Positions 47,401 to 50,400 of a stretch of DNA of 64,000 bases are shown here, piece after piece. Each line of letters starts with the position of its first letter. The first letter of the stretch is position 1. The stretch comes from Hoplostethus atlanticus (lineage: Eukaryota; Chordata; Actinopteri; Trachichthyiformes; Trachichthyidae). Under the pieces are notes generated by a model. The model was not told the DNA's origin, did not search any database, and worked only from the letters and a program-made list of their open reading frames with translations. A program made the translations under genes and the position numbers. Location: assembly GCA_034670405.1 (NCBI GenBank), contig JAXDDX010000043.1, forward strand, positions 806,001 to 870,000. The letters run 5' to 3'.

Positions 47401-50400
47401 TGGAAACGTGACAAAGGTAGTCTATGAAAGCAAGAGGGTTGACTTGTTGCAGGAAGAGGATGGTCACCCTGTTTGTTGACATGGGGGGGGGGGGGTGTAG
47501 CATCAGAGACAGGCACAGAAAAAGTGCTATCCAACTGAAACTCTTTGATGATTCCATAAACTACCTGACCACTGCATCTAGAAGCTCAACGTATTCATGA
47601 TTCATTCTCAAAAAAGGCTGCTCATTTCAAATAAGCCTTCTTCAATTTTACTACCAAGTACAAAACAACTGCTTTTCCTGCTGTCCAGTATAGAATATCA
47701 GTAGTCAATAAGAAGAAAATTGGTCAAGTGTGTGGAGGACTAGCCAAAGGTCGGGGCTCTGCTTTGAGGCTACACCGTCTGGAGAGCCCGAGTCCTCGCG
47801 TCTGCTGGATGATGGCCCTGTTGTGGGGTCGTGATGCGCAGCTCAGGCATTGTTGATGATGATGAGCGCCGGACTGGCCATCTGCTGACTAGTCTCGCAC
47901 ATGGTGCCCAGGTTAACCGGCTTAGCAAAGACTCGCGGCGTGTTGAGATTATAGACACCCGTCTGCAGGAAGCAGGCTCGCAACGCTAGGCACAGCATTT
48001 CCTGAGGTTTCAGCTGTAGCTTGTACTGGGTCTGACCCAGCCATGTGAACGAACTGTGGACCTCCAGAGACTCAACACTGAAGGAAGGAGGGATGGAGAG
48101 AGAGAGGTAAAGAGAAAAGGTGTTAAGGAACAAAGGATAGAAGACAGGCAGAGGTGGCAAAAGTACACACATTCTTTACTCAAGTAGAAGTACAGATAAG
48201 TAGAAGAAAGACACTGTACTGATTCAACTTCTTTACTTAAGTAAAAGTCAAAAAGTACAGGCTCTGAAATGTATAAGTATAAAAGTAAAAAGTAATAGTA
48301 GCGTTCTTAGAGCCGACAACTTCAAACATTTCTCTTAAATAAGGCCATGGATGGGGAATGTCTTGCTGCTCTGAATCTGTTGGCTGGTTCGCTTTCATCC
48401 ATGTCGCTACTAGTTCCGCTGCACGGACATCACATTCAATAGACGTCTTTTCTCCGGGGTCGACTCTCCCTCTCATCTCCCTCTTTTACGTCTTTTTCCT
48501 GTTGTTACGTCTGCTGTAATGATGGCGTAATGACGCAAAAATAAAAAAATAATCGATAATTCCCCTCAAATGCATTAAAACTAAAGTAACAAGCCTGTTT
48601 TGAAAATGTAAGGAGTAAAAAGTACAGATATTTGTGTTCAAATGTAGGGGGTAAGTACAGTACAGTAAGTACAGTACAGTAACAAAGTATTTGTACTTAT
48701 TTACTTCCCACCTCTGAAGGCAGGGGAGAAGACACATCACGGCTAAGGGAGGGGAAGTCAGTGACAACCATTTGTACAAGGCCTTAAAAAACAGCTCACC
48801 CCAAAATTAAACTCCTGTCATCATCTACTCACCCCATGTGAGTGGAAACACCACTGAAGTTTGTACAACCACCAAACATATAGCGAGTAAGCTACTGCAC
48901 TACTATCTCAGCTTTCTTATAAACAATTCGATTGAATGGATCTACCAGAGCAATTCTGAAACTTTTTGGACCTATTTTGCGGCATAAATGGCGATTTTGT
49001 AGATATAGAGTCCAGGTTTAAAAATACCAGAATTCTCCTTTAACACTGTCAATCGCTCCTTCACATCTGACTGCAAACTATTTATACCTTCCTTCTCTTA
49101 TACCTCTGTAGCCTTCCTCCACTGCCTTCTCTCTCGAATAAGTCTGTCTATCTCTTGTTGGTGCCTGGATTTAACTCCCTCTAGCTTCTTCCTTTTCTCA
49201 AAGACGCCAAACCTTTCTACGCCATAATCATAAATAATAACCCCCCTTTTTTTTCTAACTTACTCTCAGCAGTTCCTTTAAGCTTGTCTTAATACCCTAA
49301 CCAAGTCACTATTGATATCTTCCCATTTCCTGCTTTCTGACGACCTTGGCCAACCTAATTCTAGGTTTCTGAGCACTAATCTTCTCCGTCTTTGGCTGGC
49401 GAGCCTCTCTGCCTTCAGGGGTGCTGATGTCCTGCGAGCTGTGGTTTACTTCCTGCCGCTGGACTTCACCCGACTGACTTGACATACTTCTTAAGAAATA
49501 ATTATCAATGCAGGGTCCCTGTGTTCCCTCTAACAAGCACCTCTTCCTCCCTTGGTGAATTCTAAGTCCCTTTAAGGTTGTTACCTTCTGCCAGCCCACA
49601 AGTAAACCCGAAGCTTCTTCCCATCTACCTCTGAATTACCTCCACTGACATGTTTTCATACTTGTAGTCAAATCCATTCCAGAATCAATAGCCGTGTCAA
49701 CCATGACACGAGTTCTAGTCCATTGCAGCGCCGATGGGGTCTAAAAGTTTGATTGAGCGTCTTCTATTTCGATTTCCCCTCTTTCCATTTGCCTGTTCCG
49801 CGCCTTGAGTGAACGTCGGTGTCAACGTGTTTCAAGTTCAAATTTTTTTCAGAAAATATTGTACATTATCTGCATACAATGTAAGGGTGCCAATAATCTT
49901 GGCCATAACTGTATATGATCAAAGTGTTTAATGAATACATTGTTATTTTTTTATTTTGTTTTGAGTGAATTTTTTTTTATGTTTGAATTTAAACTTAATG
50001 CATTTTTAAAAGTCCTCTCACTAAAGAATTCAAGAAATCCTTCAATTCAGGGCAGTTTGTAGCATTTTTTAACTGGAAAGCCCCCACCCAGCAGGTTTAC
50101 CTCATTTGAATTAGAGCTGGTGGGGTTTTCAATCATGGTCCATGATTGTGACTGTTCTGCCGGTAAGGACTGTCTTCAGATTCATTCTATTGTAATAATT
50201 CCATTAAACTTTTAACTAAACTAAATTTATTTGCAAAACATCATGAAGAACATTATTATTGTATATTGAAGCATCTCTCACCCTAGCTTCTCCTTCTCCC
50301 TATGTCCTCTCTGCTCCCTTTCTATCCACTCTCTCCTTCCTCTTTTCCTTCTCTCAACTCTCCCAATCTCTATTTTTTTTTAAATCTTTCCTGCTCTCCT

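Follow-up and report, generated by a model that had tools for sequence, protein, structure and literature searches.

In Hoplostethus atlanticus, the 3' end of trappc8 is present as a reversed copy in an intron farther upstream in trappc8. This copy lies within a terminal inverted repeat (TIR) DNA transposon and is likely explained as filler of that transposable element, a context that an earlier, sequence-only reading of this DNA had overlooked. The window analyzed here is a stretch of 64,000 nt (contig JAXDDX010000043.1, positions 806,001 to 870,000), and genome searches were made against the window's own assembly, which comprises 632.8 Mb in 1,161 contigs. The combined features described below point, with good confidence, to a single-copy cis Pack-TIR that would have arisen by template-switch gap filling in a TTAA/AGGRR (Kolobok/T2-like) element. 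The mechanism is already known rather than new, and the case is a further, very young example of it.

Comparison of the window with itself (BLASTN) matched positions 47457 to 48940 to the opposite strand of positions 59889 to 58346 with an E value of 0. Global alignment of the copy (1,484 nt) with the source (1,544 nt) gave 1457 identical columns, 17 different columns, and 11 gaps (1457 of the 1474 ungapped columns were identical). The near-perfect inverted copy of the trappc8 terminal exon that the sequence-only reading had described in an upstream intron was thereby confirmed, and the whole last coding exon, its acceptor, and the start of the 3' UTR were all seen in the alignment, as that reading had stated. 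The copied portion of the 3' UTR reaches just beyond the poly-C run, and the acceptor of the last exon is retained. The coding exon differs from the source at a single position (47951 in the copy, 59375 in the source; TAC against TAT, both Tyr), in agreement with the one silent difference in 235 coding positions reported before. The distance previously given as about 11 kb is 10.9 kb from start to start, and the facing ends are separated by 9,405 nt. A missing segment and a difference in poly-C length had also been noticed; the global alignment resolves the former into 45 nt absent from the copy in five nearby gaps at 48653 to 48673, and the poly-G run of the copy is 20 nt shorter than the poly-C run of the source. 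The poly-C run in the 3' UTR of the source is 38 nt long (59826 to 59863), and assembled lengths of such runs may be unreliable.

The Pfam family PF24542 (Ig_TPPC8_C) matched both the copy and the source with an E value of 8e-20 each, and PF12739, PF24544, and PF24546 matched other frames of the window, which identifies the gene as trappc8. The last exon gave no match in a PDB search. Because intron sequence and the acceptor were copied along with the exon, mRNA was not the template, and a retrocopy was ruled out. In the assembly, the exon with the 3' UTR was located at two sites (both of the two candidates were scored), and only the source was similar to the exon/UTR part of the copy. For the copied block as a whole, the source was the best genome match apart from the copy's own locus, and the match ranked below it covered only the internal repeat. 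A second template for the right end was considered and dropped as unsupported: among the 40 scored of 78 candidates, no better template than the source was found for the right part, and the best nonsource match was 80% identical. The last trappc8 intron holds a hAT-like element at about 58568 to 59163 with similar 8-nt flanks, cctgcctt and cctgtctt, read by eye. A short open frame in the copied counterpart of this element (48240 to 48485, minus strand) was without a Pfam match.

Table 1. Coordinates of the transposon, its filler, and related trappc8 features in the window
Feature	Position	Strand	Basis or remark
TIR DNA transposon around the copy	45749..49043	.	TTAA target, AGGAG... ends; 59-nt inverted ends, family members in assembly
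Left terminal inverted repeat, including TTAA	45749..45807	+	Aligns with family members
Insertion splitting the left arm	45808..46790	+	Left-truncated dispersed repeat, fixed right end ...GGTACCCTG
Remaining left arm of transposon	46791..47464	+	Family similarity stops at 47464
Left junction	47462..47464	+	GGT common to transposon and source
Filler, reversed copy of trappc8 3' end	47462..48940	-	Similarity to source
Copied last coding exon, including stop codon	47843..48077	-	Alignment, PF24542; one silent difference
Copied 3' part of last intron and acceptor, 863 nt	48078..48940	-	Holds hAT-like repeat at about 48149-48720
Right end of transposon, 105 nt of right arm	48939..49043	-	Inverted repeats; family alignment
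trappc8 exon directly downstream of host intron	50464..50667	+	PF24546 Ig_TPPC8_4th; splice sites
trappc8 penultimate coding exon, between inverted copies	57404..57493	+	Frame, splice sites
Source of copy: end of last intron, last exon, and start of 3' UTR	58346..59889	+	Window self-comparison
trappc8 last coding exon (source), 235 nt	59249..59483	+	Frame, Pfam

The copied block is bounded on both sides by the arms of one element (Table 1). A 59-nt inverted repeat with 95% identity pairs positions 45749 to 45807 with 48985 to 49043, and a second inverted pair (46791 to 46844 with 48929 to 48982) continues these ends. TTAA is outermost on both arms and is followed at both ends by AGGAGAATTC. 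The layout is the left arm to 47464, trappc8 sequence to 48940, and then the terminal 105 nt of the right arm; with the trappc8 block between the left and right arms, host DNA replaces the interior of the element. How much of the interior was lost depends on the form of the element, as two-ended members span 728 to 1326 bp. The terminal motif AGGAG fits AGGRR, and a TTAA target duplication is present. These features suggest a Kolobok/T2-like element, a superfamily name taken from the ends alone. The piggyBac superfamily, whose ends differ from AGGAG-type ends, was weighed for the TTAA and was dropped because the AGGAG ends fit the T2/Kolobok AGGRR motif. The two arms of this element differ at 5 of 103 sites, and those of six other members differ by 2 to 4 substitutions in about 105. 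This divergence agrees with an older element but is no proof of one, and the element would not be clearly much older than the other members.

The transposon belongs to a dispersed family. A search with the left part of the element (46791 to 47470) gave 1,652 first-look candidates, and among the best 40, which were scored, family matches end at 47464 or earlier. The set of loci numbered 20 including this one, and 14 of the 19 others were compared in detail; all 14 match the right 105 nt of the element, with 89.5 to 95.2% identity. Two recognizable ends were present in nine of the 19 other loci, 728 to 1326 bp apart in the stretches examined, and one of these nine has a second possible right end, which would give a span of 706 bp. 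TTAA was found on both sides in all six of the two-ended members examined, with the proviso that the word used to find the ends itself contained TTAA. The remaining 10 of the 19 loci had no second recognizable end within the stretches examined. When four of these one-ended members were extended by 4 kb, a second end was found in none of the four, and thus there is no sign that the family is often filled. Both arms are about 600 nt or longer in 3 of the 14 compared members (L011, L013, and L015), which are therefore nearly palindromic, and others have a short second arm. No long frame was noticed in the family.

At the left edge of the filler, similarity to trappc8 is free of mismatches from 47462 onward and similarity to the transposon extends to 47464, a 3-nt overlap that lies in a wider stretch, AGGANGGT, in which seven of eight positions are shared. 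At the right join, 2 nt (GA) are common to the transposon and the source, and the right end of the element resumes at about 48939. In 200,000 random joins of both sequences, at least 3 nt were shared in 5.6% of cases and at least 2 nt in 16%. Being short and not very unlikely by chance, the shared bases would mildly support microhomology at the joins. Two differences between copy and source at 48929 and 48930, 10 to 11 nt from the right edge, may be errors made during repair or a patch derived from the element.

The target site was evaluated with a 318-nt query in which both transposon flanks were joined with one TTAA kept. Among the 116 candidates, 40 were scored, and 37 of the 42 match rows cross the join; two of the five that do not are the halves of this very locus. 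All four aligned paralogues of the surrounding repeat are contiguous across a single TTAA, which indicates that an older dispersed repeat was the landing site of the transposon. Beside the TTAA, 15 nt that all four paralogues have are absent from the transposon's left flank. The surrounding repeat was judged by eye to be a minus-strand LINE, and its 300-aa minus-strand frame matched no Pfam family. An older, different repeat is present in the window as an inverted pair (50718 to 50884 and 58337 to 58503; 77% identity). One copy of this pair begins at TTAA, and the copy at 58337 to 58503 marks an edge of the copied block.

The left arm is itself split by a second insertion, which we take to be hAT-like from the look of its TIR. 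The search for its family gave 951 first-look candidates, of which the best 40 were scored. The right end is fixed in all nine of the other copies viewed, and their left ends extend further. This transposon does not flank any of those nine copies, and hence the repeat was probably acquired here. The dispersed repeat of which it is a truncated copy is roughly 1 kb or longer, and the best other genomic copy is 97% identical.

We infer a break, its cause, a template switch, and an order of events from this arrangement as follows. An older dispersed repeat within a trappc8 intron would first have received a TTAA-type TIR element (Kolobok/T2-like), and a second repeat would have entered the left arm of that element before the capture. 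The interior of the element, with its inverted arms and short repeats, would later have broken or stalled replication. By a switch during repair, the 3' end of trappc8 itself, 9 to 11 kb away, would then have become the template, and about 1.48 kb would have been copied in reverse before the element was rejoined near its right end via 2 to 3 nt of microhomology. The separation of source and copy (9.4 kb) is in line with the cis bias described in the available portions of Tan et al. 2021 (PMC8277862). What speaks against this reading is that the right break lies 105 nt from the end of the element; had the element been of the long form, as much as roughly 0.5 kb of its right arm could be gone. 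With a break near the end and a possibly large gap, the transposition-independent form is less certain than gap filling in general. The same authors, in the portions available, expect large gaps near ends when excision started the repair, and an abortive excision may have triggered the gap filling here.

The sequence-only reading had proposed a very young copy and, as its alternative, an assembly or haplotype artefact. The first part of that interpretation held, as three clean blocks of the alignment contain 7 substitutions in 1,264 sites (0.55%). The second part, that the source was placed twice, is very unlikely. Homopolymer and short-repeat lengths do differ between the copies, as such an artefact might produce, but the seven clean substitutions and the two near the right edge are all transitions (nine of nine), six of them at CpG, which is the mark of ordinary mutation and not of sequencing error. 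The other 8 of the 17 differences, including five transversions, are confined to the left join, the poly-G run, and stretches rich in indels and give no argument either way. The hAT-like repeat inside the copied block has many relatives in the assembly, and six outside relatives (L003 to L008) served to polarize the changes. Changes restricted to the source are position 59172 and the absence of 9 nt that the copy (48274 to 48287) and all six relatives have; the copy is itself without 3 nt of the relatives' sequence there. Changes restricted to the copy are positions 48391 and 48475 and the loss of the 45 nt at 48653 to 48673. A change common to source and copy, GTAAAAAGTACAG against GTAGAAAGTACAG, is absent from all six relatives, and the two are therefore sisters, and the private derived changes at both loci indicate that they are not one sequence assembled twice. 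The artefact also has against it that both junctions lie within the arms of a single TTAA-bounded transposon, that the empty site is found in paralogues, that there is no third copy of the exon/UTR in the assembly (two of two candidates), and that the window contains no N. The copy is very young and, as far as the sequence alone shows, not an artefact.

Two other origins are compatible with some of the same observations. One possibility is that the element captured the exon and then transposed to its present site, with the capture being FoSTeST-like or due to end bypass. Both ends with TTAA and the numerous element family would suit this alternative, but it appears unlikely because there is no further exon copy in the assembly. 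With the exon and 3' UTR at two places only, the loaded element is not seen elsewhere in the assembly. Furthermore, the source lies only 9.4 kb away in the same gene and is not flanked by the element, the best match between its 100-bp flanks and three family members being 10 nt (E value of 0.49), and the left-arm repeat, found outside this element in nine other copies, suggests that the element had already been resident for some time. The alternative that non-homologous end joining made an ordinary inverted segmental duplication, which fell within a transposon by chance, is hard to tell from gap filling on sequence alone, and the short microhomology fits it too. Yet it is highly improbable, as both edges of the copy lie inside one element and the interior of long members is absent, a recurring pattern in the available portions of PMC8277862.

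Template-switch gap filling, the preferred reading, leaves trappc8 with a reversed piece of itself. Four exons were found between the copies (50464 to 50667, exons starting at 52210 and 53905, and 57404 to 57493), and their open frames and splice sites are kept; thus, no sign of a broken trappc8 was seen. The copy is antisense to trappc8 and therefore gives no TRAPPC8 exon from the copy alone in the host transcript; being antisense to the host gene, it is probably without a function of its own. However the copy arose, the DNA of the locus now carries a large inverted repeat, with complementary stretches in trappc8 that are 9.4 kb apart and have perfect runs of up to 451 nt. The trappc8 pre-mRNA could form a long duplex between the host intron and the terminal intron and exon of the transcript itself, and effects on trappc8 RNA are possible. 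According to the available portions of published work, inverted repeats in introns flanking exons can pair, favoring back-splicing. The downstream pairing partner here includes the last exon itself, and the outcome is thus hard to foresee. There is a slim chance that the reversed exon acts in cis on trappc8 RNA by such pairing, through changed splicing of the last exon, back-splicing of the exons between, or A-to-I editing, or that the 9.4-kb stretch inverts by recombination. Two other features were seen in the gene. A tRNA-Gly (tcc) was predicted on the plus strand upstream of the transposon in the same part of trappc8, at 44137 to 44210 by ARAGORN and at 44138 to 44209 by Rfam, and could be either a gene or the head of a SINE. 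A long (CT)n tract at about 57316 to 57383, followed by (GT)n, lies about 20 nt ahead of the penultimate exon's acceptor.

The locus offers a clean and very young case of host DNA patching a TIR transposon in an animal, with the element, its target site, the parent, the junctions, and part of the direction of change all legible. A TTAA/AGGRR element is thereby added to the list of Pack-TIRs in PMC8277862, which in the portions available is dominated by hAT and TcMariner elements (323 of 370). Since the filler reproduces the host's terminal exon almost exactly in reverse, the locus also amounts to a natural experiment on what a long inverted repeat within a gene does to that gene. The gene concerned, trappc8, belongs to membrane traffic.

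Pack-MULE and Pack-TYPE elements are plant DNA transposons that carry pieces of host genes, and the present element is like them in being a DNA transposon with a piece of a host gene. In contrast to the rice Pack-MULEs/Pack-TYPE elements, 36% of which are multicopy according to the available portions of PMC8277862, it is single copy and local. T2-MITE/Kolobok elements are described in the available portions of PMC6004289 as having a TTAA target and a terminal AGGRR motif. The element resembles them in its TTAA target, its AGGAG end, its dispersed family, and the lack of a long frame noticed here. It is unlike them in that the arms of 3 of its 14 aligned family members reach about 600 nt or beyond. 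The literature matches listed included no trappc8 Pack-TIR and, judged by title, no gene capture by Kolobok elements.

The closest parallel is provided by the 370 animal Pack-TIRs of Tan et al. 2021 (PMC8277862), to the extent that they are described in the available portions of that paper. Among 281 unique cases, 56.9% are within 15 kb of the parent, 67.6% have microhomology at at least one breakpoint (median, 2 bp), and four (1.4%) are multicopy; the authors consider that template-switch gap filling, and not transposition, makes most single-copy cases. The median filler is 224 bp, the median gap is 4.6% of the element, and the breaks lean to the inside. A worm case in which a terminal coding exon and part of its 3' UTR were copied and a human case in which an intronic region was copied into the 3' UTR of the same gene are also described. 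Set beside the features by which these cases were recognized, the present element has 1.48 kb of internal sequence between both of its ends (limits, 100 to 5,000 bp), with 59 nt of terminus on the left and 105 nt on the right (at least 10 bp per flank). The parent is the unique best match, with an identity of at least 90% and a length ratio within 80 to 120%, and the 863 nt of intron copied with the acceptor distinguish the filler from a retrocopy. Where no transposon is allowed within 100 bp of the parent, there was no notable match to the three family members; the old, different repeat at 58337 to 58503 runs 9 nt past the parent's edge, and the fit to this filter is therefore less clean. The element is like a single-copy cis Pack-TIR in that host DNA lies in one TIR element, the parent is unique, more than 90% identical, and less than 15 kb away, there is microhomology at the breakpoints, the intron is kept, and there is one copy. 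It is unlike the Pack-TIRs of that study, as far as the available portions describe them, in the length of its filler (1.48 kb versus a median of 224 bp) and unlike most of them in being a TTAA/AGGRR element, as 323 of the 370 are hAT or TcMariner. It differs further in that the host sequence was placed, in reverse, in an intron farther upstream in its own gene, with one break 105 nt from the end of the element.
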